This document shows, one piece after another, positions 13,266 to 29,701 of a DNA stretch of 29,835 bases. This stretch comes from a virus. Under the pieces are notes generated by a model. It had not been told where the DNA came from, searched no databases, and saw only the letters and a program-made list of their open reading frames with translations. Positions within the stretch are counted from its first letter, which is position 1; every line of letters begins with the position of its first letter. A program made the translations under genes and the position numbers. The stretch is taken from positions 1 through 29,835 of IMG/VR virus record IMGVR_UViG_3300037672_001301; one strand, given 5' to 3'.

Positions 13266-16200
13266 ATGGCTGAGTTTAGACTTGGAAGAGTAAAATTCAA
13301 CTGGACGGGTAATTGGGATACTTCCAAATCTTACCTCATTGACGATATCGCCAAGTTTGGTGGCAATACTTATGTAGCGGTCGCAAACCATACTTCCACT
13401 GGAAGCACTGCTAACTTCTACACCGATCTCGGTAATTGGAATCTTCATATTGAGGGTCTAGAGAATAGGGGTAGTTGGTCACCAGATACGTATTACCGAG
13501 TAAACGATCTCGTCACCTTCGGTAACGTAGTATATCGTGTTACAGTTGCACATACTTCTGTCGGTACATTTATCGACGAGACGAAGGTTGTTCAGTATGT
13601 CGCAGGATTTAATTCAGAAGGCGAATGGCAAAACACCACAGAGTATCAGCAAGGGGACGTTGTTAATTACAACGGGTCTTCCTATGTTGCTATTACTACT
13701 TCTGCTGCTGGATTTAACCCACCAGAATATATCGGTTTAGGAACAGGTAGCAAGTGGAATGTTCTTTCCGATGGTCTTGCTGGCGCTGCAGTAACATATA
13801 CAGAAGGCACCTATTATAGAGGTGACATGGTTCTGTTTGGTGGTAATTCTTATCGCCACAAACTTGGCATTACTACTAATGTTTCTCCTGTTCAAGCTGG
13901 ACTGGGAACCGTTGGAGATGCTCAGTATAGTGGAACCGCCGTCTGGGATCTTCTGGTCAAAGGCATTAGCTTTGTTGGTAATTTCTCCACAACATTCGCA
14001 TATCATCCAGGTCATGTCGTTAGATATGGATCTAACTCATATGTCTCAGTTGGTGCTTCTTTCGTAAATATTAATCCAATTGCTGGTGTAGGAACATATT
14101 GGGAAACATTGGCTGCTGGTGACTCAGCTGCTGCTCTTAATACTAAGGGTGATATTCTTACTTATAACGGTGGTCCTGCTAGAATCGGTATTGGTTCTAC
14201 TGGATATGCACTTGCAGTTCAAAGTGATGGAGTTCCTGGATACGAAATTGTTGGTAACCAGACAAGAATCTATTACGTTGACTCCGAAGATGGCCTAGAT
14301 GCCAACAACGGTCTTGCACCTAACCTTGCATTTAAGACAATCAAGGCGGCTTGTGCTGCTGCACGTCCTGATAACAATATCACTGACTTCCAGTATACTG
14401 CTGCAACTGGTGTTGCAACTATCACATCTCCTGGTCACGGTCTGGCAAACGTTGGTACGTTTGTTCAGTTGGCTGAGATTGAATTTGAATGTCTGTCTGG
14501 TGGTAATGTCTTCAATATCTTGGGCATGACATACAACAAGGCTGTTGGTCTTGCAACTATTACTGCTATTGGTCTTGGTGCTGCTCCAGAAATTGGAATT
14601 GGTGCTACTGTTAGATTGAGAAATCTTGGTATTTCATTCACTGGTAATGCAAACTTTGAACACCAGTTCTCCCGTGCAGAGTCAGATGCCCTCATCACTG
14701 GTGGTGACTATATTCATAACTTTGTGGCTGCTACTTCGGGTGCAGTTAACGTTGTAACAGGAAGTCTTTCTGGATCCCAGTTAACTCCAACAAATGCTGT
14801 TTATACGGCAACTAGTGGTGAGTTGGAGATCACTGTTGGTTCTCACGGTTTGTCGATTAGTGACACTATCAGCTTTGATGCCAACTCAATGACATTCACT
14901 TGTCAAATGGACGGTGGTAGTTCCAATAAGACATATCCAAGAACAACTGACCCCGCATACGGTGTCAATCTCTCGATCAATGCAATTACTGCAAACACTT
15001 TCACAGTTAACGTTGGACCTTCTCCTATCGTTAACTTCCAAGTTGGTGGTGCAACATATAACCAGGTAACTGGCGATATCGTAATGGATGTCGGTGTTCA
15101 TCAACTTGATATTGGTACATCGGTCAAACTTCTTACCGAAGGCATCGTCTTCAAGTGTTCCATGGACGGTTACCTAACCGACCACGCATATCCAAGAGCA
15201 ACTGCTGGTGATGGTTCTCCTGATCCTGCATACAATACTGCTCTGTCGATTACTGCTGCAACAACTACTACCATCACGGTTAATGTTGGTACTGCAAGTT
15301 CTTCTCAGACAATTACTGGTAAGTTCCCTGCAGTTCATACTCAGGCATCTACTTTCCAGTTCCCAGTTCAGGCAGTTCCCGATAACAACTCTATTGTAGT
15401 TAACGTCGGTGTTTCTAATACTGATTATCTCTATGTTTCTGGTGGTACTGCGTTCGTTGGTGTTACAACAACGGTTTATCCCGATAAGGTCTCTAAGTCT
15501 TACTTTGAGGTTCTTCAGGTTATTGATGCCAATAGAATTAGAGCTAACGTTGGTATCTCCACAATCAATCACACATATGTGAGAGGTGGTCATCTAACTG
15601 ATCTAACTCCTGCTATTCTGAAACTGTCTGCTTCACAGTTCTATGAGCAACTGCCAATCAAGGTTCCTCCTTTTACCTCGATTATCGGTAACTCACTAAG
15701 AGGTACTCAGGTTCTACCTGCTGCTGGTTTCTCTGACGATTCTGTAACTCCTAATAACAGATCTCAGATGTTCCAGTTGTCTGATGCTACTACCCTTCAG
15801 GCAATGTCCATGAAGGGAATGGAAGGATTTATGTATGATCCTAACGTACCTTTCGTACTAGATAATAGTAACATTAGAACTGGTCTTGGAACAACTGCTG
15901 CTGGTGTTGTTTGTGCCTTTAACCCAGATTCCCCAATCAATAATAAGTCTCCTTACGTTAAGGATTGTACTGTATTCTCCGATAACGCAAGTGATTTCGG
16001 TCGTCACGGTGGTGGTGCTGTTGGTGTATTCGCTGATGGTGGTGTCCATTCCGAGGGTGCGAAATCAATTGTCTTTGACTCCTTCACCCAGGTATCTTCC
16101 GATGGTGCTGGATATATCCTAGACAAGAGTGCAATCTCCGAGATTGTTTCTTGCTTCACCTACTACTGTAAGTGGGGATACTACTCTGGTGGCGGATCTA

Positions 16201-17699
16201 GAATTCGTTCCGTTGGTGGTAACAACTCCTATGGTGATTACGGTGTTATTGCATCTGGATTCTCCACAGACGAAAGCCCAAGAACATCAAGAGTCTTTGG
16301 TTCTCTGATGGAAGTAAACGGTCCAACTAAGGCTGGTACTCTGGCTATTGGTGCTACCATGTTTGGTGCAACCTCTGGTGCTCGTGGATGGTTCATTAAC
16401 GATCAAACCGCTGCAGACAGAATTTACTTCAAGTATCATCCTGGTTATGGTTCAGTTGGTCTTGGAACCACTGGATTCGTAGATGGTGAGATTATCTGGT
16501 TCGGTGCTGGCGGCGACAGTCAGGCTGGTGTTGGTTCTATCACAGTTTCTGGTGTTACTTCCTCTATCGGCGGACAAAGAGGAACAATCCTTGAGGTTGA
16601 CAATATTTCTTCAACACTCTTAGTTGGTGACGCACTTGGATTCTCTACAACCTCTTATGGTGATGACAATCTCTTCTATATCATCAATACAGTCACGAAT
16701 ATCTCTGCTGCTTCCACATACACGTATTACACACCTAGTGGTATTGCAACAGTAACATATCAAGATCGTGCTACGCTGACAATTTCTCCAGAGAAGTCAA
16801 GTGGTACATGGGATACCCGAGAGGTAACTGGTGCAGGTTCTACACTATCTGTTAGAACCCTCTTCTCACAGTGTCGCCTAACAGGACATGACTTCCTGAG
16901 TGTTGGTACTGGTAACAAGGCAGAAACCAATTATCCCGATGTTGATCAAACTCAGATTATTCAGGGTAATGAGACTAATATCTTCGGTCCTGGTAAGGTA
17001 TTCTTTGTTTCCACTGACCAAGGTGGTAACTTCAGAGTCGGTCAATTCTTCTCCGTTGATCAGTTGACTGGTCGTGCAACCTTGGACGCTTCTGCGTTCA
17101 ACCTGTCTGGTTTGACTGAACTGAGACTGGGTGCAATCGGTGGTCAAATTGGTGAGGCAATCAACGAATTCTCCTCGGATGAATTCATGTCTGGTCAGTC
17201 CAATACTGCATGTCCTACTGAGGGTGCAGTTGCTGGATTCCTCCGTCATGGTGCGATGGGCGTCAAGGCAATGACTCCACCAGTTGGTACTACTGCCGAA
17301 AGACCTGGTGGGCTCGATGAAGAGTTCAACACTGGTGCTTTGAGATTCAACACTGATCTTGGTTCTATTGAATTCTATAACGGATCTATTTGGACACAAC
17401 CTGGACTTAAGACCTACTCAACGGTATCGAGTTCTGGCGCGGTTGCGGCGGGTCAGGTCTACTTTGTTAACACCACTGGTGGTACTCTAACTCTGACTCT
17501 ACCTGCATCCCCCGCACTGGGAGATACCATTAGATTCTATGATGTTGCCAACACCTATGATTCTAATGCGTTGGTCGTTGGACGTAATGGGAAGAAGATT
17601 CAGGGTGATGATTCTGACATGACGGTCAATCTTGAAGGGGCTTCATTTGAACTCGCCTTCTCGGGTGATACCTACGGTTGGAGATTGTTCTCCGTCTGA
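13266..17699 (+). CDS. Long tail-fibre protein with CBM-like repeats and beta-helix region
   Basis: This is a 1477-residue protein. A strong ribosome binding site (AAAAGGAG, 13253-13260) fixes the start. Residues about 12-283 hold five repeats of the chitinase-type carbohydrate-binding pattern W-x-x-x-x-x-Y-x-x-G/D-D-x-V-x-F/Y-G/N-x-x-Y (for example YQQGDVVNYNGSSYVA), each closing with a Trp. Near residue 340 IYYVDSEDGLDANNG then AFKTIKAAC resembles the start of pectate-lyase-like beta-helix domains. Residues about 380-700 contain degenerate repeats of the form Y-x-x-x-T-G-x-x-x-x-x-V-x-x-H-x-L with FTCQMDG and YPR phrases. The C-terminus has GALRFNTDLGSIEFYNGSIW, common in cyanophage fibres. 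A role in host-surface recognition is likely; no catalytic residues can be named. Confidence 0.8.
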   Translation: MAEFRLGRVKFNWTGNWDTSKSYLIDDIAKFGGNTYVAVANHTSTGSTANFYTDLGNWNLHIEGLENRGSWSPDTYYRVNDLVTFGNVVYRVTVAHTSVGTFIDETKVVQYVAGFNSEGEWQNTTEYQQGDVVNYNGSSYVAITTSAAGFNPPEYIGLGTGSKWNVLSDGLAGAAVTYTEGTYYRGDMVLFGGNSYRHKLGITTNVSPVQAGLGTVGDAQYSGTAVWDLLVKGISFVGNFSTTFAYHPGHVVRYGSNSYVSVGASFVNINPIAGVGTYWETLAAGDSAAALNTKGDILTYNGGPARIGIGSTGYALAVQSDGVPGYEIVGNQTRIYYVDSEDGLDANNGLAPNLAFKTIKAACAAARPDNNITDFQYTAATGVATITSPGHGLANVGTFVQLAEIEFECLSGGNVFNILGMTYNKAVGLATITAIGLGAAPEIGIGATVRLRNLGISFTGNANFEHQFSRAESDALITGGDYIHNFVAATSGAVNVVTGSLSGSQLTPTNAVYTATSGELEITVGSHGLSISDTISFDANSMTFTCQMDGGSSNKTYPRTTDPAYGVNLSINAITANTFTVNVGPSPIVNFQVGGATYNQVTGDIVMDVGVHQLDIGTSVKLLTEGIVFKCSMDGYLTDHAYPRATAGDGSPDPAYNTALSITAATTTTITVNVGTASSSQTITGKFPAVHTQASTFQFPVQAVPDNNSIVVNVGVSNTDYLYVSGGTAFVGVTTTVYPDKVSKSYFEVLQVIDANRIRANVGISTINHTYVRGGHLTDLTPAILKLSASQFYEQLPIKVPPFTSIIGNSLRGTQVLPAAGFSDDSVTPNNRSQMFQLSDATTLQAMSMKGMEGFMYDPNVPFVLDNSNIRTGLGTTAAGVVCAFNPDSPINNKSPYVKDCTVFSDNASDFGRHGGGAVGVFADGGVHSEGAKSIVFDSFTQVSSDGAGYILDKSAISEIVSCFTYYCKWGYYSGGGSRIRSVGGNNSYGDYGVIASGFSTDESPRTSRVFGSLMEVNGPTKAGTLAIGATMFGATSGARGWFINDQTAADRIYFKYHPGYGSVGLGTTGFVDGEIIWFGAGGDSQAGVGSITVSGVTSSIGGQRGTILEVDNISSTLLVGDALGFSTTSYGDDNLFYIINTVTNISAASTYTYYTPSGIATVTYQDRATLTISPEKSSGTWDTREVTGAGSTLSVRTLFSQCRLTGHDFLSVGTGNKAETNYPDVDQTQIIQGNETNIFGPGKVFFVSTDQGGNFRVGQFFSVDQLTGRATLDASAFNLSGLTELRLGAIGGQIGEAINEFSSDEFMSGQSNTACPTEGAVAGFLRHGAMGVKAMTPPVGTTAERPGGLDEEFNTGALRFNTDLGSIEFYNGSIWTQPGLKTYSTVSSSGAVAAGQVYFVNTTGGTLTLTLPASPALGDTIRFYDVANTYDSNALVVGRNGKKIQGDDSDMTVNLEGASFELAFSGDTYGWRLFSV
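13299..14115 (+). repeat. Five tandem CBM-like protein repeats
   Basis: Within the 1477-aa fibre, five units of about 45-60 codons carry a conserved W (or aromatic), Y, D-x-V, Y/F-G and Y. Cores are YLIDDIAKFGGNTYVAV, YRVNDLVTFGNVVYRVT, YQQGDVVNYNGSSYVAI, YYRGDMVLFGGNSYRHK and YHPGHVVRYGSNSYVSV. The spacing and aromatic pattern match small chitin/cellulose-binding modules. Confidence 0.7.
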
Positions 17700-17768: not shown

Positions 17769-18551
17769 ATGGCCAACTACAGATCATATAAAAAAGTAAC
17801 TGCGGCCCAGGTTCCAGATGGGTCCATCACCGTTGATAAACTTGCTAGTGGTGTTGGACCGAGCTGGAACGTAAAAACAGTTTACGGAGATCCATCATCA
17901 ATGACTTCTGGTTGCTGTTGTCTTTGGACTGTTCCAACTGGAGTTGGTAAAATTACTTGGGAACTATGGGGTGCTGGTGGTAATGGACATGGTGCATGTT
18001 CTTGCAACAGATGTCATCACTACAAAGGTGCTGGCGGTGGAAGTTACAACACCAAGACAATTTCTACAACAGGAAGTTGTCAATATACAGTATGTGCTGC
18101 TGGCGTCTATAGATGCTGTTCTAGAGAATGTACTGGATGTTACGGATGTTCTTCATATGTAAATGGATATAATCTAAGTAACTTCTGTGCAGTGGGTGGT
18201 GGTAGAGGAGAAGCCAATACTGATTGGTCTAACCTCTGTGCATCTGTCCATCACACCTGTATGCAACCAGGAACATATGATGGGGACTTTGCAGTAAACC
18301 CTCATTGGCCAGGATTCAGTGGTCAATGGAACTGTCATTGTGGTCTGTCGAATACACAAACTTGCAGTGGTGGAGCCGCACTAATTGGAATTGGTAATAA
18401 AACGTACTCCAGTCACTGTTGGATGCGTTGTGGTTGCTGGATCGCACCATATGGTGCTGGTGGCCAAGGCGCAATGACTTCATATTGTGAAAGATGCTGC
18501 GGTCAAGGCGGTACTGGTGGATCTGGAATAGTACGTATCACATACATGTAA
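17769..18551 (+). CDS. Gly/Cys-rich fibre-tip-like protein, paralog 1 of 3
   Basis: This is a 260-residue protein with 25 Cys by hand count. Residues 1-30 (NYRSYKKVTAAQVPDGSITV) are a short fibre-type lead. From residue ~47 it has SGCCCLWTVPTGV then ELWGAGGNGHGACSCNRC. The W-x-V-P-x-G-V-x-K-x-x-x-E-L-W-G-A-G-G pattern is that of Gly-rich domains seen in phage fibre tips. Cys clusters follow: YRCCSRECTGCYGC, HCWMRCGCW and SYCERCCGQGGTGG. No signal peptide or membrane segment is present. AGGA at 17759-17762 serves as ribosome binding site. I infer a distal adhesin or fibre component stabilised by disulfides outside the cell or by metal; the function is not established. Thirteen bases separate it from paralog 2. 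Confidence 0.7.
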   Translation: MANYRSYKKVTAAQVPDGSITVDKLASGVGPSWNVKTVYGDPSSMTSGCCCLWTVPTGVGKITWELWGAGGNGHGACSCNRCHHYKGAGGGSYNTKTISTTGSCQYTVCAAGVYRCCSRECTGCYGCSSYVNGYNLSNFCAVGGGRGEANTDWSNLCASVHHTCMQPGTYDGDFAVNPHWPGFSGQWNCHCGLSNTQTCSGGAALIGIGNKTYSSHCWMRCGCWIAPYGAGGQGAMTSYCERCCGQGGTGGSGIVRITYM

Positions 18552-18564
18552 TCAAGGGGAATCA

Positions 18565-19362
18565 ATGGCCGACTACACAAGTTATAAAAAAATTAGTGGA
18601 GATCAACTAGATAGTGGAATCTTAGGATCTGCAAAATTTGCTTCATCCCCAACTTCAACATTTGGAGTAAAGTGGATCTATGGAACTGCGTGCCGATGTT
18701 CACCTGGATGTTGCTGCGCTTGGGTTGTTCCTACTGGAGTTAAGAAACTCTGGATCCAGGCTTGGGGTGCTGGTGGTAATGGAAATGGTGCATGTTCATG
18801 TAGTAGATGTCATCACTACAGAGGTGCTGGCGGTGGACTGTATAACAGTGTGATGTTAGATACCGCCGCTGGATGTACATATTCTGTATGTGCAGGTGGT
18901 GTGTATCCATGTCTTTCTAGAGAGTGTGCTGGATGTAACGGATGTACTTCATACGTTAATGGTTATAATTTAAGTAACTTCTGTGCATACGGTGGATCTT
19001 GTGGTCACGCCAACACTAGTTGGTCAACTGCATGTAATGCAGAATGGCACTGCTGTGTGGCTCCTACATCTAATGGTGGTCAGTTTGGTATGGGTAACCT
19101 ACGAGACACTTGGTCTACTGGTGGACATGATACTTACCGTGGTTGGTGTCATTGTTGGGTTCAGATGCAAACACCAACTTCTGCTCCATTCATTGGAACT
19201 GATGTTCATATGTCAAATAGAGAGTGTTGGATCCGTTGTGGTTGCTGGATTGTTCCTTATGGTCATGGTGGTCAGGGCGCACACTCTTCATATTGTGGTT
19301 CAAGTTGCTGCGGACAAGGCGGTACTGGTGGCGGCGGACTCGTCAAAATCACTTACTTCTGA
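18565..19362 (+). CDS. Gly/Cys-rich fibre-tip-like protein, paralog 2 of 3
   Basis: This is a 265-residue protein with 27 Cys by hand count. It has the same plan as its neighbours: a short lead (DYTSYKKISGDQLDSG), then a CRCSPGCCCAWVVPTGV segment and AWGAGGNGNGACSCSRCHHY. YPCLSRECAGCNGC, SYVNGYNLSNFCAYGG and the closing ECWIRCGCWIVPYGHGGQG then SYCGSSCCGQGGTGGGG follow. It is the most diverged copy in the lead and in the middle (residues 150-210), with extra Cys before the CCC cluster. The ribosome binding site AGGGGA is close to the start. It ends two bases into a late-promoter-like motif that precedes paralog 3. The functional inference is as for paralog 1; the variable middle would be the place for receptor specificity. 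Confidence 0.7.
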   Translation: MADYTSYKKISGDQLDSGILGSAKFASSPTSTFGVKWIYGTACRCSPGCCCAWVVPTGVKKLWIQAWGAGGNGNGACSCSRCHHYRGAGGGLYNSVMLDTAAGCTYSVCAGGVYPCLSRECAGCNGCTSYVNGYNLSNFCAYGGSCGHANTSWSTACNAEWHCCVAPTSNGGQFGMGNLRDTWSTGGHDTYRGWCHCWVQMQTPTSAPFIGTDVHMSNRECWIRCGCWIVPYGHGGQGAHSSYCGSSCCGQGGTGGGGLVKITYF

Positions 19363-19368
19363 TAAATA
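19361..19368 (+). promoter_or_regulatory. Possible T4-type late promoter (GATAAATA)
   Basis: GATAAATA starts inside the stop codon of paralog 2 and lies 21 bases before the start of paralog 3, so the third copy may have its own late transcript. Confidence 0.45.
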
Positions 19369-19388
19369 ACTATTAAATAGGACTCCAA

Positions 19389-20186
19389 ATGGCCAATTAC
19401 GCTTCTTATAAACAGATTAGTAACTCCCAAATTGTTAATGGGTCTATTACTAACACTCAGCTAGAGAGTGGAGCATTCTCTAACTGGAATGTTAAGTGGA
19501 TCTATGGGGATCCTGGAACATTGTCATCTGGTTGCTGTTGTCTTTGGACTGTTCCAACTGGAGTCCAAAAAATGTACGTGGAACTCTGGGGCGCTGGAGG
19601 AAATGGACATGGAACATGTTCATGTAACAGATGTTATAACTGGCATGGAGCTCAGGGTGGATACTATAATGCAAAAACTCTTTCCGTAACACCAACAAAT
19701 CAATATACAGTATGTGCTGGTGGTGTTTATCGTTGTTGTTCTAGAGAATGTGTTGGATGTGATGGATGTGTTTCATATATGAATGGAACTGGATTATCTA
19801 ACTTCTGTGCAATGGGTGGCACTAGAGGTTGTGCAACTAACTCTTGGTCCACAACTTGTAGTTCCACTATGGCTAAGTGTTGTATGGAACCTGGTGCTCA
19901 TGGAGGAGACTTTGGAATGGGTAACCATGGTGGTGGTACTAGAAAAGGATACGGTGGTGATGGTATGTACTGTCATTGTTTCTTCAATGAGACTAGATCT
20001 ACAGGAGCTCCATTTTTGGGTACTATGGCAGTGGCTAATACGGTTAGACATTGTTGGGTCCGTTGTGGTTGCTGGAGAGCTCCATATGGACATGGTGGTC
20101 AGGGTGCGATCACATCTTACTGTGAAAGATGTTGCGGACAAGGTGGAACTGGTGGCGGTGGTCTTGTTAAAATTAGTTATATGTAA
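19389..20186 (+). CDS. Gly/Cys-rich fibre-tip-like protein, paralog 3 of 3
   Basis: This is a 265-residue protein with 25 Cys by hand count. It is closer to paralog 1 than to paralog 2: it shares SGCCCLWTVPTGV, ELWGAGGNGHGTCSCNRC, YRCCSREC and SYCERCCGQGGTGG. The central region differs from both (KCCMEPGAHGGDFGMGNHGG and YCHCFFNETRSTGAP). The lead (NYASYKQISNSQIVNGSITN) is again fibre-like. AGGA (19379-19382) is the ribosome binding site. Directly after its stop, a different frame reads a tight Cys cluster and then a terminator follows. The next gene resembles a tail fibre assembly chaperone, an order like gp37-gp38 of T-even phages, which fits a fibre-tip role. Confidence 0.7.
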   Translation: MANYASYKQISNSQIVNGSITNTQLESGAFSNWNVKWIYGDPGTLSSGCCCLWTVPTGVQKMYVELWGAGGNGHGTCSCNRCYNWHGAQGGYYNAKTLSVTPTNQYTVCAGGVYRCCSRECVGCDGCVSYMNGTGLSNFCAMGGTRGCATNSWSTTCSSTMAKCCMEPGAHGGDFGMGNHGGGTRKGYGGDGMYCHCFFNETRSTGAPFLGTMAVANTVRHCWVRCGCWRAPYGHGGQGAITSYCERCCGQGGTGGGGLVKISYM

Positions 20187-21073: not shown

Positions 21074-21105
21074 GTTTAAGGTAGATATATAATATTATAT
21101 TATAT

Positions 21106-21834: not shown

Positions 21835-23010
21835 ATGAGATCCAAAGCATTTTTTGTCAATGGAGGAGCCGGTAGAGTGCTTTGCTCCATTCCTGCATTT
21901 GAAAAATATGCAGAAACCCATGATGATTTTATCATCGTTGCTGAAGGAGGAACAGACTTTTTTAAAGGTCATGCAACTCTAGATGGCAAAGTCTATGACA
22001 TGTGGCACAAAAATTTGTTCCATGAACATTTGAAGCATAGAGACTGTGTTTCACCAGAACCATATAGAATGTGGCATTACTACAATCAAAAATGTAGTTT
22101 GGCACAAGCTTTTGATATGGAAATCAACGGTCTAGATGAACCGAGAGAACTTCCCAAACCAACTCTCAATCTCACTAAGATGGAGGTTATTGCTGGTTAC
22201 AATATGATTCAAGAAGTTAAAGCAGTAACTGGTAAAGATAAGGTAGTAGTAATCCAACCTTTTGGTAGAGGAGTTCAGACTGTTGGCGAGTTTATTGCAG
22301 ACGCTTCTTCAAGAAGTATGTCTCTAGTAAACACTGTAGATATTATTAATGATCTCAAAAAAGATTATGGTGTTATTGTCATGGCTGAACTTCAGTTTCC
22401 TGTAGAAGAAAATGAAGACAAGTCAAAATATAAAATTGCAAGACCTCAGATTGATGACATTAGGGTATGGGCTTCTGTCATAGACGTTGCTGATCATTTT
22501 ATAGGTGTAGATAGTATCGGTCAACATATTTGTAAGTCTCTTGACAAAAAAGCAACTGTAGTTATTGGATCTACTTATCCAGTTAATATTTCTTATCCAG
22601 AGGATAGTAACTTTGATCTAATTGATATTGGTTTAGACAGAAGGAAATATTCCCCAATTAGATTGACTATGGATGAAACTATTGATCGTTATAATGATCA
22701 ATCCATGGAAATGTCTGCGGAACAAGTCAAATCTATTTTACGTTCTGCTAGAAAACATTTAGGCAAACCCACTTCGTTTAAAGGAACTTATACGCCTCCA
22801 CAAAGTACGGATTGTCCTACCTGTCCACCTGGAACTTCATCAACTCCTGCAGTTGCACCAGGAAGTACTGCAATGTTGCCAGGAAGTAGTACATTGATGC
22901 CACAACCTCAGTGGAATCAGCCACCTGCAAATATTGCAGAAAAACCCAAAAAACCAAAAGTAGGTTTCAAAAACGAAGTAAAGAATCTACTGAAAACTGA
23001 TATTAATTGA
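21835..23010 (+). CDS. GT9-like (heptosyltransferase-type) glycosyltransferase with Pro-rich tail
   Basis: This is a 391-residue protein; GGAG at 21823-21826 sets the start. VNGGAGRVLCSIPAFEKY near the N-terminus resembles the G-x-G-D-x-L-x-x-x-P opening of family 9 glycosyltransferases. Near residue 223 GVDSIGQHICKSLDKKATVV and GSTYPVN match the donor-site segment (D-S-x-x-x-H-x-A-x-A-L-x-K-P ... G-x-T-x-P). Family 9 contains the ADP-heptose:LPS heptosyltransferases, which fits the heptose genes downstream. Residues ~315-391 are unusual: a Pro/Ser/Thr linker with CPTCPPG, then a basic end (KPKKPKVGFKNEVKN). A GT-B fold is inferred. The acceptor is unknown: host LPS, a virion glycan or another phage-made sugar. 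Confidence 0.6.
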   Translation: MRSKAFFVNGGAGRVLCSIPAFEKYAETHDDFIIVAEGGTDFFKGHATLDGKVYDMWHKNLFHEHLKHRDCVSPEPYRMWHYYNQKCSLAQAFDMEINGLDEPRELPKPTLNLTKMEVIAGYNMIQEVKAVTGKDKVVVIQPFGRGVQTVGEFIADASSRSMSLVNTVDIINDLKKDYGVIVMAELQFPVEENEDKSKYKIARPQIDDIRVWASVIDVADHFIGVDSIGQHICKSLDKKATVVIGSTYPVNISYPEDSNFDLIDIGLDRRKYSPIRLTMDETIDRYNDQSMEMSAEQVKSILRSARKHLGKPTSFKGTYTPPQSTDCPTCPPGTSSTPAVAPGSTAMLPGSSTLMPQPQWNQPPANIAEKPKKPKVGFKNEVKNLLKTDIN

Positions 23011-23019
23011 GGTATTTAA

Positions 23020-24816
23020 ATGTCACAATGGATTGCGGCTATTGCCCGAGGTCATAACTCAGGGCTCTGTCTTCTCAAAGATGGTGAAATTGTATTATCA
23101 ATAGAAGAAGAACGACTTTCTAGGAACAAGTATGATGGAGGTCCATATGCGTGTATGACTAGAATTTTGGACTTCACAGATACTCTTGATTATCTCGTTA
23201 TCGCACATACTCAACCACTGAGTGAGGCTGGTCAATGTGATTTCAGTGGAGATCCCATTTATGTTGCATTGGCAAGAAAGTTGGGACTAATCGATAGGAA
23301 AGCAAATCCACATCAACACCCACAAGTTATTGATTTGAGTGCAACTCACCATAAACTTCACGCAGCATGTGCCTTCTATAGGTCTGGATTTAGTCGTGCT
23401 GCAGCCGTTGTTGTTGATGGTGCAGGTACTTTTATTCCCATGAATATTAATGGGGAAAATGAAATGACTTGGGAATTGGAAACTCTATTTAATTGTGAGT
23501 ATCCATCAGAATTTAAGACAATATATAAACATCAAGGCGGAAGAGGTCCATGGACATCTGTTCGATTTGAGGAGTTTAGTAGTAAAAGGGAAGGTGAGGA
23601 AGGAACTCATGAAATGATTCTTGATGATACTGCTGGTATTACTAAGGCATATGAAGCTGTAACACAGTATTGTGGGTGGTCTCCTATTGAAGCTGGTAAA
23701 ACTATGGGTCTATTCCCCTATGGAAACCCCAATGATGATATTCCCGATGTGTATACCGATTATAATGGTGCCTCTGAGTGGAAGACATCCAATAGAGACC
23801 TCATTACACCAACGTATCCTAACGGTGCCCTAGTCAATCAGGGGCGGTTTAAATACCTTAAGACTGACTATGACTATGAAGGTGATATGACCCTCCTACA
23901 GAACCGTAGAGACATGGCATACGCTATTCAAGTAGAGTCTCAACAGATGGTTCTGGATCTCATTCGCAAAGTTGTAGGTATGACTGGTCAAACTAATGTA
24001 GTATTGACTGGTGGATATGCACTAAATTGTGTTGCTAACTATTGGTATCTTGAACAACTAAAAGATGAAGGTATTAATCTATTTGTAGAACCTGTAAGTA
24101 ATGATGCTGGTACTGCAATTGGAGCTGCACTTCTCCAATACCATAGAGTAACTAAAGATGCACAAGTCCGTGAACCACTAAAAGATCTTTATACTGGATT
24201 TGAATACATGTATTCGACTGATCAAATTGTAGATACTGCAGATAAGTATAACTCCACAAGAGTTTTTGAATCTACAAACAAAGATGTAATTGATTTAATT
24301 ACCAATAAAAATATTGTTGCTATCTTCCAAGGTAGATCCGAGGCTGGTCCCAGAGCACTAGGTAACAGGTCCATTCTTTATGATCCTCGTGATCCAGATG
24401 GAAAGGATTTTGTCAATAAAGTAAAAAATCGTGAATACTTCCGACCTTTTGCGGGATCAATCCTTAAAGAACATGTTCATGAGTGGTTTGATCTTCGTGG
24501 CATGGACGAAACCCCGTTCATGATGTATGCTGTTAAATGTCAGGATGGGATTGAAGAAAAAATTCCTGCAATTATTCATGTTGATGGTACTTGTAGGATT
24601 CAAACAGTCACTGAAGATCAAAATAAAAATTATTATGATTTGATTAAAGAATTTTATGAAGCTACTGGTTGCCCTATTGTCTTCAACACTTCTTTTAATT
24701 TGGGGGGCGAGCCTCTCGTTGAAACACTTGATGATGCTTGCAGAACCCTTTCTGAATCTGATATTGAATATCTCTACTTACCCGAACATGGGTTGATGAT
24801 TGAGGCTAAAAATTAA
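23020..24816 (+). CDS. NodU/CmcH-family carbamoyltransferase, full length
   Basis: This 598-residue protein has both domains of the family. The N-terminal Kae1-like (ASKHA) half has GHNSGLCLLKDG near residue 11, EEERLSR at 30-36, the metal-site segment THHKLHAACAFYRSGF at ~109, VVVDGAG at ~130 and VLTGGYALNCVANYWYL at ~328. The C-terminal YrdC-like half has GRSEAGPRALGNRSIL near 438 and NTSFNLGGEPLV near 556. Relatives (NodU, TobZ, CmcH) carbamoylate hydroxyls of sugars, using carbamoyl phosphate and ATP through a carbamoyl-adenylate. GAGG before the ATG is the ribosome binding site. The stop overlaps the next start (TAATG). A decorating step on the sugar made by this cassette is the likely role. 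Confidence 0.9.
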   Translation: MSQWIAAIARGHNSGLCLLKDGEIVLSIEEERLSRNKYDGGPYACMTRILDFTDTLDYLVIAHTQPLSEAGQCDFSGDPIYVALARKLGLIDRKANPHQHPQVIDLSATHHKLHAACAFYRSGFSRAAAVVVDGAGTFIPMNINGENEMTWELETLFNCEYPSEFKTIYKHQGGRGPWTSVRFEEFSSKREGEEGTHEMILDDTAGITKAYEAVTQYCGWSPIEAGKTMGLFPYGNPNDDIPDVYTDYNGASEWKTSNRDLITPTYPNGALVNQGRFKYLKTDYDYEGDMTLLQNRRDMAYAIQVESQQMVLDLIRKVVGMTGQTNVVLTGGYALNCVANYWYLEQLKDEGINLFVEPVSNDAGTAIGAALLQYHRVTKDAQVREPLKDLYTGFEYMYSTDQIVDTADKYNSTRVFESTNKDVIDLITNKNIVAIFQGRSEAGPRALGNRSILYDPRDPDGKDFVNKVKNREYFRPFAGSILKEHVHEWFDLRGMDETPFMMYAVKCQDGIEEKIPAIIHVDGTCRIQTVTEDQNKNYYDLIKEFYEATGCPIVFNTSFNLGGEPLVETLDDACRTLSESDIEYLYLPEHGLMIEAKN

Positions 24817-25223
24817 TGAAGACTGTATTTGTAAATGGCACGTTTGATATTTTACATCCTGGACATATAGAACTATTCCGAGTAGCGAGATCTCTGGGTG
24901 ATCGTGTCATTGTCGCTACAGATAGTGATGTGAAGATCAAAAAAGATAAAGGTCAAACTAAACCCATAAATGATCTTTGTTATAGAATATCAATGCTCGA
25001 ATCAATCAAGTATATTGATGCTGTCCACTATTTCAACGATCGAAAGGGATTGGAAGATCTTATCCGAGTTTATAAACCAGATATTCTCCTCTTAGGAAAT
25101 GACTGGGAAAATGGTGATGTTGTTGGAAAAGATATTGTCAAAGACGTTAGATTCTTGCCAAGAGTTGGAGATTATTCTTCAAGCTCAATTATTAAAAAAA
25201 TTCTAATTAATAACTTGGACTGA
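24816..25223 (+). CDS. RfaE2-type (HldE C-terminal-domain-like) heptose nucleotidyltransferase
   Basis: This is a 135-residue stand-alone cytidylyltransferase-fold protein. The nucleotide-binding signature is NGTFDILHPGH with H14-x-G-H17. KDKGQTKPINDLCYRISML matches the K-G-x-x-R-P-x-x-x-x-x-x-R segment of the ADP-transferase half of HldE, and YSSSSIIKKI corresponds to its C-S-T-T-x-I-I-x-K-I end. The known reaction joins ATP and heptose-1-phosphate to give ADP-heptose. Related glycerol-3-phosphate and phosphoethanolamine transferases share the fold, but the following RfaE1-type kinase and the HldD-type epimerase make the heptose assignment much the best. It is coupled on both sides by one-base overlaps. 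Confidence 0.8.
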   Translation: MKTVFVNGTFDILHPGHIELFRVARSLGDRVIVATDSDVKIKKDKGQTKPINDLCYRISMLESIKYIDAVHYFNDRKGLEDLIRVYKPDILLLGNDWENGDVVGKDIVKDVRFLPRVGDYSSSSIIKKILINNLD

Positions 25224-25999
25224 TGGAATGTAATATATTAGTTATTGGGGACTCATGTGATGATGAATACATCTATGGAGATTGTTCTAGGTTAAACCCA
25301 GAAGGACCTATTCCTGTTCTAGACAAGACATGTACAGAAATAACACCTGGAATGGCATCAAATGTCAATGCTAATTTAAAATCTTTTGGTATCAGAACAA
25401 ATCTGATTACCCAGAAAGAAAAAATTAAAAAAACACGATTTGTTGATAAGAAAAGTAATTATCAATTACTCAGAGTTGATACTACTCCTGAGGTAACTCC
25501 ACTAAGTGCTTCTCAAATAAAAATGGCATTTATGCATAGTCAATATGATGCACTAGTAATATCAGACTATAATAAAGGTTTTCTTACGGATGAATCATTA
25601 CGTATTATCTGCACATATTTTAAAGGACCAATTTTTATTGACACAAAGAAAACTAGATTATTTCAACAATCTAATGTTTTCTTCAAGATAAACAAAAAAG
25701 AATATGATTTACTTGATCGTGAATTTATGCCTCATGATACTAATTTAATTGTAACTTTAGGATCAAATGGATGTAAGTGGAGTGGTATTCATTTCCTACC
25801 AAGAAAAGTTAATGTATTTGATGTATGTGGTGCTGGTGATACCTTTCTTTCTGCCTTAGTGGTTGAGTTTATTCGCACAAAAAATATGCAGAAGTCTATT
25901 GATTTTGCAAATAAAGCAGCTTCTATTTCCGTAGAAAACTCGGGAACATATAAACTAACTAAAAATGACATTGTAAGAATTTATAATGAACGAGTTTAA
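25223..25999 (+). CDS. RfaE1-type (HldE N-terminal-domain-like) heptose-7-phosphate kinase, PfkB family
   Basis: This is a 258-residue protein. VIGDSCDDEYIYGDCSRLNP followed by EGPIPVLD copies the opening of HldE/RfaE1 (G-D-x-x-x-D-x-Y-x-x-G-x-x-x-R-x-x-P-E-x-P-V-P). PGMASNVNANLKSFG is the altered P-G-G-A-A-N-V-A segment, QLLRVD the substrate-side strand and SDYNKGFL the S-D-Y-x-K-G-x-L motif. FDVCGAGDTF carries the PfkB signature with catalytic Asp206. It is shorter than typical RfaE1 domains (about 315 residues). In the known pathway the kinase turns D-glycero-D-manno-heptose 7-phosphate into the 1,7-bisphosphate. It overlaps the transferase by one base (TGATG) and the next gene by 14. Confidence 0.8.
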   Translation: MECNILVIGDSCDDEYIYGDCSRLNPEGPIPVLDKTCTEITPGMASNVNANLKSFGIRTNLITQKEKIKKTRFVDKKSNYQLLRVDTTPEVTPLSASQIKMAFMHSQYDALVISDYNKGFLTDESLRIICTYFKGPIFIDTKKTRLFQQSNVFFKINKKEYDLLDREFMPHDTNLIVTLGSNGCKWSGIHFLPRKVNVFDVCGAGDTFLSALVVEFIRTKNMQKSIDFANKAASISVENSGTYKLTKNDIVRIYNERV

Positions 26000-26531
26000 G
26001 AAACCCAATCCAGTATTTTGGATGCCTTTTTTCATAGAAGAAATTGATATTAGTAAATTAGAATTCAAAGAAGAACCAGAATATACTCCAACTTTTATTT
26101 CTCGTACTCCAACTACAATGGGGGAAGATGAACTTACTCAAGAGTCATACAATTATCTTGGTAGGATTCTTTGGGAGTGTATAGGTCAATATACGGAGAA
26201 ACCATTTTATATTGGTTCTGTTTGGCGTAACAAGTATGTGAAAACAGACTGGCAAGATCCACATATTCATTCTGGAGCTCAATGGAGTTTTGTGATTTAT
26301 GTGGATGTTGAGGAATCTAAGACTGTTTTTCTTTCCCCAAGTAGACACAATCAAATGAATCAATGGGGACATCTAGGTCATGCGTTTCCTTTAGACTTTT
26401 CTCCAAAAATTTCTCCTGGAAATATTATAATTTTCCCATCATTCATTGAACACTTTGTTCCCCCTGGGAATGAAGGCATAACTATATCAGGTAACATTTA
26501 TTATGATCAGCCTCCTGGAGGACCAGTATGA
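25986..26531 (+). CDS. 2OG-Fe(II) oxygenase-like protein (2OG-FeII_Oxy_5 type)
   Basis: This is a 181-residue protein starting inside the end of the kinase gene. VWRNKYVKTDWQDPHIHSGA then WSFVIYVDVEE gives the double-stranded beta-helix core with H93-x-H95. SPGNIIIFPSFIEHFVPPG gives the distal His156, and ITISGNIYY the final strand. This order (W-x-N-x-Y ... H-x-H-x-x-x-x-x-S-x-V-x-Y-V ... G-x-x-x-x-F-P-S-x-x-x-H-x-V-x-P ... S-x-N) is that of small 2-oxoglutarate oxygenases common in marine phages. The second metal ligand is His instead of the usual Asp, as in some of the family. The substrate is unknown. ATGA overlap with the next gene. Confidence 0.65.
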   Translation: MNEFKKPNPVFWMPFFIEEIDISKLEFKEEPEYTPTFISRTPTTMGEDELTQESYNYLGRILWECIGQYTEKPFYIGSVWRNKYVKTDWQDPHIHSGAQWSFVIYVDVEESKTVFLSPSRHNQMNQWGHLGHAFPLDFSPKISPGNIIIFPSFIEHFVPPGNEGITISGNIYYDQPPGGPV

Positions 26532-27646
26532 AGCAAGTTGGATTTCACTTATCCCATAACTCCTCAGTATCAGTTCTTTCTGAAGATGGGGACATTGAAC
26601 TTTTCCTGGAAGAAGAAAGATTGTCTAGATTAAAATATGATAACGATCCATTTCATGCATGTAACATGGTTCTTGGTGGACTTACCATGGATGAGATTGA
26701 AAAATATGAAGTAGCAACATCTGCATTAATATCTAAAGACAAGCTGGGAGTAAGTACATTAGATCGTAGTAGTGATATGTTAATGATGTATGTTTCTAAA
26801 TCATTAAAACTTCTACCACATGAACAAAACTCTTTTAAGTATGAAATAGTCAAAGAAAAATTTGAAAAGTTTTTTGATCATCACTTATTTCATGCTTATT
26901 GTGGATTCTATAATTCTGGATTTGATGATGCAGTTGTAGTTGTGGTTGATGGTATGGGAAACTTCATTTCTCCTGCAGAAGATAGGCATGAGGTTGTTTC
27001 CATATTCGATGCATCTTATCCATGTAATATGAATTTTTTAGGAGGGATGTCTACACCCTCTTATGATAGTTGTGATGAATCTGAACATAAAGGTGAGTGG
27101 ACATGTGGAATTGGTATGATATACTCCGCAGTATCCTCATATATGGGTTTTGGTGGACTTGGGGCTGGAAAAGTAATGGGTCTTGCTTCATACGGTAAAG
27201 AAGATCCCAATATTAGATCTTTCCTTTCTGATGGATTTAATGTAGATTCAAATCTTTTTTATAGGTCTAAGTATGGATGTAATTTTATTCCATATGATTA
27301 CTTACCTCATCATAGAGAAGCTGAAAATACTAAGAATCACTTTGAAAAATTATCTAACCTTGCTTGGAGACTTCAAGAAGATTTTCAGACTCATATGTTA
27401 AAAATTTTATTGGACGCTCTTGCAATATCGAAACGTAAAAATATTATTTTAACTGGTGGATGTGCATTAAACTGTTCTGCAAATTATTGGTATTTGGATA
27501 AGTTGCCAAAAGATGTTAAACTATATGTGGAACCTATTAGTAGTGATGCTGGAATTAGTATTGGACTATCTAAGGTTCAACATTATTCCCAAACTGGTTC
27601 CATGAAAAAATATCCACTTAAAAACTTATACTTGGGCCCCGAATGA
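26528..27646 (+). CDS. NodU-family protein lacking the C-terminal YrdC-like domain
   Basis: This is a 372-residue paralog of the full-length carbamoyltransferase in the same cassette, equivalent to its Kae1-like half only. It keeps HLSHNSSVSVLSEDG, EEERLSRLKYD, the His-rich metal segment DHHLFHAYCGFYNSGF near residue 117, VVVVDGMGNF, GLGAGKVMGLASYGK, LTGGCALNCSANYWYL near 310 and VEPISSDAG. The last residues (YPLKNLYLGPE) line up with EPLKDLYTGFE of the full-length protein, exactly where its second domain begins. No remnant of that domain follows, because the next gene starts four bases before this stop. By analogy with TobZ it lacks the part that makes carbamoyl-adenylate, so it may work with the full-length enzyme or be non-catalytic. 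Confidence 0.8.
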   Translation: MKQVGFHLSHNSSVSVLSEDGDIELFLEEERLSRLKYDNDPFHACNMVLGGLTMDEIEKYEVATSALISKDKLGVSTLDRSSDMLMMYVSKSLKLLPHEQNSFKYEIVKEKFEKFFDHHLFHAYCGFYNSGFDDAVVVVVDGMGNFISPAEDRHEVVSIFDASYPCNMNFLGGMSTPSYDSCDESEHKGEWTCGIGMIYSAVSSYMGFGGLGAGKVMGLASYGKEDPNIRSFLSDGFNVDSNLFYRSKYGCNFIPYDYLPHHREAENTKNHFEKLSNLAWRLQEDFQTHMLKILLDALAISKRKNIILTGGCALNCSANYWYLDKLPKDVKLYVEPISSDAGISIGLSKVQHYSQTGSMKKYPLKNLYLGPE

Positions 27647-27969
27647 GATATAATGTAGATATAGATGGCACTATTTGTATTCCTGGAAAAGGAGAAGGCA
27701 GATATATTGAAGCTGTGCCTATTACAGAAAGGATCTCTAAAATAAATGATCTATATATTAAAGGACATCAAATAATCTACCATACCGCTAGAGGTATGGG
27801 TACATTTAATAATGATCGAGAACAAGCTAAGGAAAAGTATTACGACTTCACTCACAAACAACTGTTGGAATGGGGATGTATGTTTCACGATCTTTTCTTA
27901 GGAAAACCTTCAGCTGACTATTACATTGACGACAAAGGAGTAAGTGCCCATGAATTCTTCGATACCTAG
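27643..27969 (+). CDS. Small HAD-family phosphatase, EcbF/BcbF (capsule) type
   Basis: This is a 108-residue protein with all four HAD motifs: D6-I-D8-G-T (nucleophile and acid/base Asp), T48 in YHTARG, K88 in GKPSADYY and D96-D97 in YIDDKG. The absence of a cap domain and the TARG and GKPxADYYIDDK phrases match the EcbF/BcbF group linked to capsule and surface-sugar clusters. In this cassette it is the natural candidate for the GmhB step (removing the 7-phosphate from heptose 1,7-bisphosphate), though it is not a GmhB by sequence; that is inference. It is coupled upstream by ATGA and overlaps the cupin gene by 20 bases. Confidence 0.75.
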   Translation: MRYNVDIDGTICIPGKGEGRYIEAVPITERISKINDLYIKGHQIIYHTARGMGTFNNDREQAKEKYYDFTHKQLLEWGCMFHDLFLGKPSADYYIDDKGVSAHEFFDT

Positions 27970-28324
27970 AGCAGCAGAACCAATTAAGTTCGTGTCCAAA
28001 GGATGGGGATATGAAAAATGGATAGTTAACTCAGAACAATATTGTGGAAAACTCCTCTTCATTGCAAAGGGGAAACAATGTTCTTGGCATTTTCATAAAA
28101 AGAAAGACGAAGTTTTTTACGTTCAAAGTGGAAAAATTAAAATCTACTATGGGTGGGATGACAATATTGAAGTCGCTAATGTATCTGTACTAGAAACTGG
28201 AGATAAGTTTCATGTTCCTATTGGAATGAAACATAGAATGTATGGTCTTTCTGATACTGAATTATTTGAATTTAGCACAGAACATTTTGATGAAGATAGT
28301 AATAGAATTAAACCTGGAGATTGA
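27950..28324 (+). CDS. Single-domain cupin, sugar isomerase-like
   Basis: This is a 124-residue protein. ATG 27950 is preferred because AAAGGAG (27934-27940) lies nine bases upstream; an in-frame GTG at 27944 is too close. The cupin metal site is H47-x-H49-(x4)-E54 in WHFHKKKDEVFYV with H95 in VPIGMKHRMYG. The end (ELFEFSTEHFDEDSNRIKPG) is like that of mannose-6-phosphate isomerase type II and D-lyxose isomerase cupins. It could isomerise or epimerise a sugar or sugar phosphate; the substrate cannot be read from sequence. No GmhA-type (SIS) isomerase is present, and a cupin has no known GmhA activity, so filling that gap is only speculation. The stop overlaps the next start (TGATG). Confidence 0.7.
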   Translation: MNSSIPRAAEPIKFVSKGWGYEKWIVNSEQYCGKLLFIAKGKQCSWHFHKKKDEVFYVQSGKIKIYYGWDDNIEVANVSVLETGDKFHVPIGMKHRMYGLSDTELFEFSTEHFDEDSNRIKPGD

Positions 28325-28929
28325 TGAAAGCTGAAAAAATAACAGATCTAATTGTAGTTTTAAAAAATCATATCCCAGACGAAACCTGTGATGAAATATT
28401 GGAATGGTTTAAATCGAACAAACATCTCCAATCCGATGGAGTAGTTTATAATACTACTGAAGGAAAAGTCCCTGGACCTACTGTTAATAAAGATTTTAAA
28501 AATGCCATTCAAACTCTTGTTCCCCCAGAAGCATCAATATCCGATAAAATGACAGATATTACTATATCTGCACTTAGGGAAGCGAGTTCTAGATATCCAA
28601 TCCCACCAGATAGCATAACACTGAATGATTATTGTGTTAGAGTTTATCCAAAGGATGAGGGTATATTTAAGTTACATGTTGATCAACATGCATTTGGTAC
28701 AGTAAATAGGTTATTTGCTTGCATCATGTATCTCAATGATGTTGAGGAGGGCGGAGAAACAGAATTTCCAGATTGGAATGTATCAGTAAGACCAGAGAAG
28801 GGAAAAGTACTACTATTTCCATGCAATTATTTGTTTAGACATAAGGGAAATGTTCCCATTTCGGAAGAAAAATATATCGCTACAAATTTTATTAACTTTA
28901 TGATACAAGATATTCCTCCAGTGTCTTGA
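28324..28929 (+). CDS. Prolyl-4-hydroxylase-like 2OG-Fe(II) oxygenase
   Basis: This is a 201-residue protein with ATG at 28324 in a one-base overlap and GGAG (28316-28319) before it; a TTG three bases upstream is less likely. The P4H core is complete: H118-x-D120 in KLHVDQHA, the strand RLFACIMYLNDVEEGGETEF, GKVLLFPCNYLFRHKG with the distal H173, and EEKYIATNF with K183 as 2-oxoglutarate anchor. The family hydroxylates prolyl residues or other small targets; in phages the substrate is generally unknown. It is the last gene of the + strand cassette, and its 3' end overlaps the convergent epimerase gene by 32 bases. No terminator is visible between them. Confidence 0.8.
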   Translation: MKAEKITDLIVVLKNHIPDETCDEILEWFKSNKHLQSDGVVYNTTEGKVPGPTVNKDFKNAIQTLVPPEASISDKMTDITISALREASSRYPIPPDSITLNDYCVRVYPKDEGIFKLHVDQHAFGTVNRLFACIMYLNDVEEGGETEFPDWNVSVRPEKGKVLLFPCNYLFRHKGNVPISEEKYIATNFINFMIQDIPPVS

Positions 28930-29701
28930 GTCTATAGTTTAACCATTCCATATCTGCACAGGTATAATCTTGATACTTACCTTTTAGGTGATCGGGGAAA
29001 GGAATCATTTCGATTTCTCCCCCTTCTTTTTTAGCAACTAATTCTGCAACTCTCTGGAATGACATTGGTTTGCCAGTTCCAATATCATAGATTCCACTGG
29101 GAGCGTCATTATTCAGGACAATATTGACTACATCATTTACACATACAAAGTCCCGATAAAACTTATCCGATCCTTCAAACAATTTAAGTTTTCCCGTCTC
29201 TCTGATCTGTTTGGTAAATTTAGATACGGGACTAGCTTGATCTCCTTTATGATCCTCTCCCGTTCCATATACATTGAAATATCTAAATCCTTGAATGCTC
29301 TCAAACCGATCTAGATTGTCCAATACATAATAATCTATGATCAATTTGGAAATTGCATACTGATTCAAAGGATTTATCTTTCTACATTCTTTAGTTTGAT
29401 TCCCATACACAGATGCAGAAGATGCGTACTTTACAGGAATTTTGTGTTCAATTGCGTGTGAAAGCAAATGAGCAGTAAAAGATTGATTGTAATGTGCAAT
29501 CTTTACCCAGTTTTTTTCTGTTGTAGATGAGATTGCTCCATTATGAATTATTAGATCTACATTTTCCCATCCGTTAAATTTAGACAGAAATTTCCATGCG
29601 TTATCTATATCAATTCCAATAACATCATGTTCTCCTTCAGTTTCAAAATAGTTCTGAAAATGGGATCCAATAAACCCCTTATATCCAGTAATTAAAATCA
29701 T
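28898..29701 (-). CDS. hldD: ADP-L-glycero-D-manno-heptose-6-epimerase (HldD type)
   Basis: This is a 267-residue short-chain dehydrogenase/epimerase. The Rossmann motif is G6-x-x-G9-x-x-G12, and the catalytic set is S94/S95/S97 (KYASSASVYG), Y115 and K119 (NQYAISK). HldD-specific features are IDNAWKF, HNGAISSTTE, GFRYFNVYG with E-D-H-K152-G (the second catalytic Lys of HldD), KLFEGSDKFYRDFVCVNDV, and IPFPDHLKGKYQDYTCAD. These phrases follow bacterial HldD almost word for word. The protein is about 40 residues shorter than the E. coli enzyme, mainly before DLIIHNGA. The reaction inverts C6 of ADP-D,D-heptose to the L,D form. It is translated after the gene to its right through a one-base overlap (TGATG) and converges on the + strand cassette. 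Confidence 0.9.
   Translation of the reverse strand: MILITGYKGFIGSHFQNYFETEGEHDVIGIDIDNAWKFLSKFNGWENVDLIIHNGAISSTTEKNWVKIAHYNQSFTAHLLSHAIEHKIPVKYASSASVYGNQTKECRKINPLNQYAISKLIIDYYVLDNLDRFESIQGFRYFNVYGTGEDHKGDQASPVSKFTKQIRETGKLKLFEGSDKFYRDFVCVNDVVNIVLNNDAPSGIYDIGTGKPMSFQRVAELVAKKEGGEIEMIPFPDHLKGKYQDYTCADMEWLNYRLKTLEEYLVS

Follow-up and report, generated by a model that had tools for sequence, protein, structure and literature searches.

Synthesis of ADP-heptose from sedoheptulose 7-phosphate takes four enzymes, namely the isomerase GmhA together with a kinase, a phosphatase and an adenylyltransferase, and the phage locus described here raises the question of how such a pathway could run when its isomerase gene is missing. 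The window, i.e. the whole stretch of DNA that was analysed, is a 29.8-kb virus fragment (29,835 nucleotides; IMG/VR record IMGVR_UViG_3300037672_001301), which shares 99.98% identity over 18 kb with a 78-kb IMG/VR contig and has Synechococcus phage Sf-FS3, isolated on WH8102, as its closest complete relative. At positions 21,835-29,701 it carries a gene cassette in which the original prediction, made from the sequence alone, had named an adenylyltransferase, a kinase, an HldD epimerase, a GT9-like transferase and a small HAD phosphatase; all five are intact open reading frames (ORFs) within these coordinates. Missed within the same interval were two NodU-type carbamoyltransferases, a cupin and two 2-oxoglutarate (2OG)-Fe(II) oxygenases. 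We consider it probable that the cassette is a phage-encoded operon for the supply and use of ADP-heptose, in which the cupin takes the place of GmhA.

Three enzymes of heptose families in the cassette

The adenylyltransferase (GC304; 24816..25223, plus strand; 135 aa) had the HldE-C/RfaE2-type heptose-1-phosphate adenylyltransferases as its top NCBIfam family (rfaE_dom_II, TIGR02199, 7.6e-33; 113 bits versus 70.6 bits for glycerol-3-P cytidylyltransferase) and is 38% identical to the C-domain of E. coli HldE. The kinase (GC305; 25223..25999, plus strand; 258 aa) was best matched by the HldE-N/RfaE1-type D-glycero-D-manno-heptose-7-phosphate kinases (rfaE_dom_I, TIGR02198, 1.2e-38; 133 bits versus 54 bits for ribokinase). 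It is 27% identical to the E. coli HldE N-domain, matches HldA in the PDB (4e84, 2e-11) and retains the DxYxYG..R..PE.PVPV, SDYxKG and GAGDT motifs. On the minus strand, an HldD-type ADP-heptose 6-epimerase (GC308; 28898..29701; 267 aa) matched heptose_epim (TIGR02197) at 5.1e-68 and PDB 1eq2 at 1.4e-48, shares 41% identity with E. coli HldD and carries the Y-x3-K motif as YAISK. Assignments of the kinase as a ribokinase and of the adenylyltransferase as TagD were ruled out by the NCBIfam profile scores. Neither enzyme was placed by the profiles with glycerol-3-P or ribitol enzymes, the outcome that the original prediction had named as contrary to it, and its claim of ADP-heptose supply biochemistry is well supported, with all three enzymes best matched by heptose families. 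On these sequence comparisons, the cassette very probably supplies ADP-heptose.

GmhA is absent and its label sits on a HAD phosphatase

That GmhA is missing from the window had been noted before. This is true but incomplete, since no SIS_2 or TIGR00441 match was found in any of the eight complete cyanophage genomes with the cassette kinase, and the cupin is the probable substitute. No GmhA/SIS protein scored over the cut-off in 48 further IMG/VR records (0/48). A sub-threshold SIS-like ORF (18 and 31 bits) was seen in one IMG/VR record with both kinase and cupin. Where IMG/VR scans returned GmhA, the hits were mostly at isolate-genome (prophage-like) edges.

The small HAD phosphatase (GC306, phrog_1238; 27643..27969, plus strand) is of the EcbF/BcbF type by profile (EcbF-BcbF family, TIGR01689, 6.1e-8; PDB 9iqw, 1.6e-17) and was not recognised as GmhB, the role that we propose for it. 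As a candidate for GmhA it was ruled out, being a HAD-family protein without the SIS fold and with no similarity to E. coli GmhA. Judged by these matches, the label 'phosphoheptose isomerase' that GC306/phrog_1238 bears in many cyanophage genomes is wrong; the label also hides the missing GmhA.

A cupin with the contact residues of D-lyxose isomerases

D-lyxose and D-mannose isomerases interconvert ketoses and aldoses of the manno/lyxo C2 configuration, as heptose-7-phosphate needs. The candidate for the isomerase step is the cupin (GC307, phrog_7851; 27950..28324, plus strand, with a likely ATG start at 27950). Its predicted structure is confident (predicted local distance difference test, pLDDT, 95), and the top PDB matches in Foldseek were the CapF cupin and D-lyxose isomerases with bound mannose or fructose, with 7nzq/2y0o at about 1e-10. 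In a profile search, the top matches included D-lyxose and L-ribose isomerases (2y0o, 1.5e-4; 7nzo, 2.2e-4). Against PF07385 the cupin scored 15.9 bits, which is under the 20.8-bit cut-off for Pfam membership, and because of this score and the weak sequence similarity we call it lyxose-isomerase-like and not a curated member.

In the Thermofilum D-lyxose isomerase, metal and sugar are contacted by K62, H75, H77, K86, E88, H143, E156 and D163, and counterparts of K86, E156 and D163 are essential by mutation (PMC8378251). All eight are kept in the cupin in the HMMER alignment, as K29, H42, H44, K47, E49, H90, E102 and D109 (residue numbers counted from base 27965). Seven of these were invariant in 67/67 aligned homologues, while D109 was Asp in 61 and Glu in 6; among 138 distinct sequences, each of the eight was kept in at least about 90%. 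The public label of this family, cysteine dioxygenase, would on the same residues and fold be a widespread misannotation. Taken together, the cupin is likely to be a sedoheptulose-7-phosphate isomerase that is non-orthologous to GmhA.

The cupin accompanies two unrelated heptose kinases

The linkage of the cupin was examined in 50 IMG/VR loci seeded with the cassette kinase and flanked on either side by 3 kb or more. Adenylyltransferase and cupin were each present in all 50, the HAD in 49, HldD in 38 and a carbamoyltransferase in 31. These loci form nine clusters at 60% kinase identity, with the cupin in every member of all nine. In 12/50, only adenylyltransferase, kinase, HAD and cupin are retained; provided that the cupin isomerises, this is exactly one gene for each of the four steps that lead to ADP-D,D-heptose. 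Cultured and single-cell records of cyanophages and marine phages gave the same picture, as 31/31 with the kinase also carry the cupin; S-SM2 was rejected as a cupin-less exception, the gene being present farther along its locus. Upstream of the heptose kinase, P-TIM68 and S-SM2 have 'transketolase central region' and alcohol-dehydrogenase-like genes, a possible link to sugar supply.

Four further phage records, Bellamy (twice), SynMITS9220M01 and AG-345-E15, have the cupin without an HldE-type kinase. Its neighbours in Bellamy and SynMITS9220M01 are an HddA-type GHMP heptose-7-phosphate kinase (7e-83, 3e-85) on one side and an HddC-like guanylyltransferase on the other, and in AG-345-E15 it adjoins an HddA-type GHMP kinase. 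HddA and HldE-N have unrelated folds and share only their substrate, D-glycero-D-manno-heptose 7-phosphate. A scan of IMG/VR for HddA-type kinases yielded 22 loci, and the cupin came directly after the kinase in 20/20 of those having downstream sequence; the genes overlap in 14, and a gap of ~300 bp in the other 6 fits a HAD gene. Caulobacter phage Cr30 and two gut phage fragments instead have an ordinary SIS GmhA next to HddA, and no cupin was found. Marine HddA pairs with the cupin and non-marine HddA with SIS GmhA, and the occurrence of the cupin with two unrelated heptose kinases and of GmhA elsewhere is the pattern of non-orthologous replacement. Apart from its HddA-cupin pair, SynMITS9220M01 encodes at 15574-17024 another HddA-like kinase, whose gene overlaps that of a GmhA-like SIS protein, and each kinase there has its own isomerase candidate.

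A cupin search of genome contigs returned 11 loci, all in metagenome-assembled genomes (MAGs) and several phage-like and with the cassette or parts of it; a clear cellular origin of the cupin was not found among the 11. Phage-like cassette contigs were binned as 'Rhodobacteraceae', 'Planctomycetaceae TMED10' and 'Euryarchaeota', among others, and their presence inside bacterial and archaeal MAGs is probably binning contamination. So far, the cupin has been found in marine viruses and virus-like contigs only.

Genes for use of the sugar and their neighbourhood

The heptosyltransferase-like protein of T4-GC302 (phrog_8954; 21835..23010, plus strand) was assigned to GT9 by its predicted fold. Sequence matches were marginal (TIGR02201/RfaQ; 2.6e-3), and profile comparison with hhalign aligned the C-terminal motif alone. 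The AlphaFold2 (AF2) model (pLDDT 86; residues about 330-377 predicted disordered) has the GT-B fold of WaaC/TibC type, and its top 30 PDB matches in Foldseek were all GT9, including WaaC, TibC, WaaF and a Veillonella GT9 (3tov). GC303 (23020..24816, plus strand) encodes a full-length NodU/TobZ-type O-carbamoyltransferase with both the N (transfer) and the C (YrdC-like) domain (PF02543, 1e-27; PF16861, 3.9e-61; PDB 7xb6, 2e-54; TobZ, 6e-47), and a carbamoyltransferase was present in 53/53 GC302 loci. The second carbamoyltransferase (26528..27646, plus strand), directly upstream of the HAD gene, consists of the N-terminal (acceptor) domain alone (PF02543, 8.4e-18; PF16861 absent). Such short copies recur in S-SSM7 (SSSM7_123), Sf-FS3 and locus L182, and the N-domain-only protein may borrow carbamoyl-AMP from its full-length partner. 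Both 2OG-Fe(II) oxygenases (25986..26531, PF13759 1.1e-8, phrog_81; 28321..28929, PF13640 3.8e-11; both plus strand) are accessory and variable.

GC302-type cassettes adjoin virion structural (tail, neck) genes in 80/84 loci, and none lies in the hli/glycosyltransferase cluster, inside which most cassette loci without GC302 are found. Because one supply module occurs in two gene contexts, this suggests that the sugar decorates the virion here and goes into host-surface or other glycans in the other context. The sugar had been predicted to go onto the virion or to alter the host surface or its innate-sensing state; the gene neighbourhood of the GC302 version favours the virion, and innate sensing found no support. 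We lean, by a modest degree, towards the virion as the target in this version. Just upstream of the cassette, three tandem Gly/Cys-rich tail-tip adhesin-like paralogues (17769..20186, plus strand; PF21722 Gly_rich_2, 1.5e-8 for the first copy) are possible acceptors, judging from their sequence and position. They share ~78% DNA identity in parts, and 2OG-Fe(II)/prolyl-hydroxylase-like genes at 21104, 25986 and 28321 accompany them. The window also encodes, at 13266-17699, a 1477-aa structural protein with matches to the carbohydrate-binding module CBM_5_12.

Discussion

The cassette was already known as a gene set, not as a pathway, and what is new here is a proposed answer to the missing GmhA. 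Its genes have been loosely labelled 'LPS (lipopolysaccharide) genes' since 2010, and the accessible portions of Sullivan et al. 2010 (PMC3037559) report T4-GCs 304, 305, 307 and 308 as co-occurring in three phages, propose their functional linkage and contain no pathway or isomerase assignment that we could find for T4-GCs 302-308. The cassette lies at the matching place in Synechococcus phages Sf-FS3, S-SSM7, S-CAM1 and S-CAM3 and in Prochlorococcus phage P-SSM2, and the order GC302-303-304-305-306-307-308 is kept, with insertions, in S-SSM7, P-SSM2, S-CAM1 and S-CAM3.

Gene content, family membership, conserved linkage, the absence of GmhA and the conserved active-site residues were observed directly; the activity of the cupin, the substrate of the HAD, the acceptor and the site of carbamoylation are what we infer in the following scheme. 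The cupin would replace GmhA and isomerise sedoheptulose 7-phosphate, an intermediate of the host Calvin/pentose-phosphate pathways, to D-glycero-D-manno-heptose 7-phosphate. The HldE-N kinase would then add the 1-phosphate, the HAD remove the 7-phosphate, and the HldE-C transferase form ADP-D,D-heptose, which HldD would epimerise to ADP-L,D-heptose. Transfer of the heptose would fall to the GT9-fold protein, most likely onto neighbouring tail proteins, and one or both carbamoyltransferases may carbamoylate it, comparable to what is proposed for WapO on Pseudomonas core heptose. To our knowledge, isomerisation of sedoheptulose 7-phosphate by a cupin fold was not known before, and only GmhA-type enzymes are known for this step. 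Somewhat less firmly than the isomerase assignment itself, we expect the cupin to be the first such isomerase outside the SIS/GmhA type, feeding both ADP- and GDP-heptose routes, and phages of heptose-less hosts to divert Calvin-cycle sugar to the virion.

Several observations weigh against this scheme. Adenylyltransferase, kinase and HldD all score under the curated NCBIfam equivalog cut-offs (229.6 against 274.6 bits for HldD) and, because none reaches its cut-off, are divergent family members; the kinase is also ~55 residues shorter than HldE-N. The cupin resembles lyxose isomerases only weakly in sequence (~22% identity), the fold search gives equal rank to the CapF cupin, which is a nucleotide-sugar epimerase, cupins are functionally promiscuous, and SynMITS9220M01 has a GmhA-like SIS protein alongside the cupin. 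In the GT9-like protein, the position of the catalytic Asp13 of WaaC is Arg14, invariant in 65 sequences (manual alignment), and this exchange may have altered or abolished the activity. The scores under the cut-offs, together with a PDB sequence search that puts the adenylyltransferase nearest glycerol-3-phosphate cytidylyltransferase (6.8e-16), would fit a nucleoside diphosphate sugar other than heptose, i.e. ADP or CDP carrying some other polyol or sugar. We judge this very improbable: RfaE2 is preferred for the adenylyltransferase by >40 bits in NCBIfam, kinase and HldD independently indicate heptose, and the cupin changes partners between HldE-type and HddA-type heptose kinases. The equal rank of CapF-type epimerases, a weak match to WbuC-type cupins of O-antigen clusters and the cysteine dioxygenase labels are in line with a different role for the cupin, in which a host GmhA isomerises and the cupin acts later as a tailoring epimerase or oxygenase on the sugar or acceptor. 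This is unlikely, as the cupin follows two unrelated kinases feeding ADP and GDP, which fits a shared early and not a nucleotide-specific late step, and is kept where HldD, GT9 and carbamoyltransferase are lost; its lyxose-isomerase catalytic set is complete, and a 4,6-dehydratase, the source of a 4-keto epimerase substrate, was not recognised in the window.

For the destination of the heptose, remodelling of the host surface (LPS or capsule) is a less favoured but substantial alternative to the virion. The supply module lies within hli-linked glycosyltransferase clusters of P-TIM68, S-SM2, Sf-CH8 and Bellamy, and the LPS-modifying WaaC/WaaF are close fold matches of the GT9-like protein. However, the GC302-containing version sits between tail adhesins and the neck gene gp13, without other glycosyltransferases, and the statement in the original prediction that hosts lack heptose was borne out for the LPS of Synechococcus WH8102 and CC9311 (PMC4515613). 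A reading of the genes as 'stuffer DNA' without function, retained for headful packaging, is a possibility raised for cyanophage LPS clusters by Sullivan et al. 2010 (PMC3037559), and is hardly credible given tightly overlapping ORFs, near-invariant cupin active-site residues over 138 distinct sequences and a linkage kept across freely reshuffled contexts.

If the cupin is the isomerase, the gap would be closed in a pathway found on hundreds of marine phage contigs, the GmhA step would gain a non-orthologous enzyme, and glycosylation of virion or surface would be tied to a viral diversion of the host pentose-phosphate/Calvin pool. Two widespread labels would be corrected, 'phosphoheptose isomerase' for the HAD and 'cysteine dioxygenase' for the cupin. 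The question left open by Sullivan et al. 2010 (PMC3037559), of functional cyanophage 'LPS genes' versus stuffer DNA, becomes testable by simple complementation.

Among known systems, WapO of Pseudomonas, a putative heptose 7-O-carbamoyltransferase on core heptose (PMC8005017), is likened to the phage carbamoyltransferases by the proposed heptose carbamoylation. The phage GT9-like protein has the fold and a C-terminal GxDSxGxH-type motif in common with WaaC/WaaF and with TibC, which puts ADP-D,D-heptose onto protein, whereas its sequence is barely alignable with theirs, the catalytic Asp is Arg and the TibC iron finger was not seen. With the isomerases Thermofilum 7NZO and B. subtilis YdaE 2Y0O, the phage cupin shares the fold, the 3His-Glu metal site and two Lys, Glu and Asp of the sugar site; compared with these D-lyxose/D-mannose isomerases it is shorter, and its proposed substrate is a C7 phosphate. 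The 'LPS' cluster of P-SSM2/S-SSM7 (T4-GCs 302-308) (PMC3037559) has identical genes, order and location, with the HAD labelled phosphoheptose isomerase and the cupin cysteine dioxygenase. In relation to the GDP-heptose pathway (GmhA-HddA-GmhB-HddC), relatives of the cupin adjoin HddA and HddC-like genes in Bellamy and SynMITS9220M01 and HddA in 20 IMG/VR loci, while the window has the HldE-type ADP route. The homologous kinase, adenylyltransferase and epimerase of the E. coli GmhA-HldE-GmhB-HldD pathway are all present in the phage cassette, but here kinase and transferase are separate proteins, the phosphatase is an EcbF/BcbF-type HAD, and a cupin stands where GmhA would be expected.

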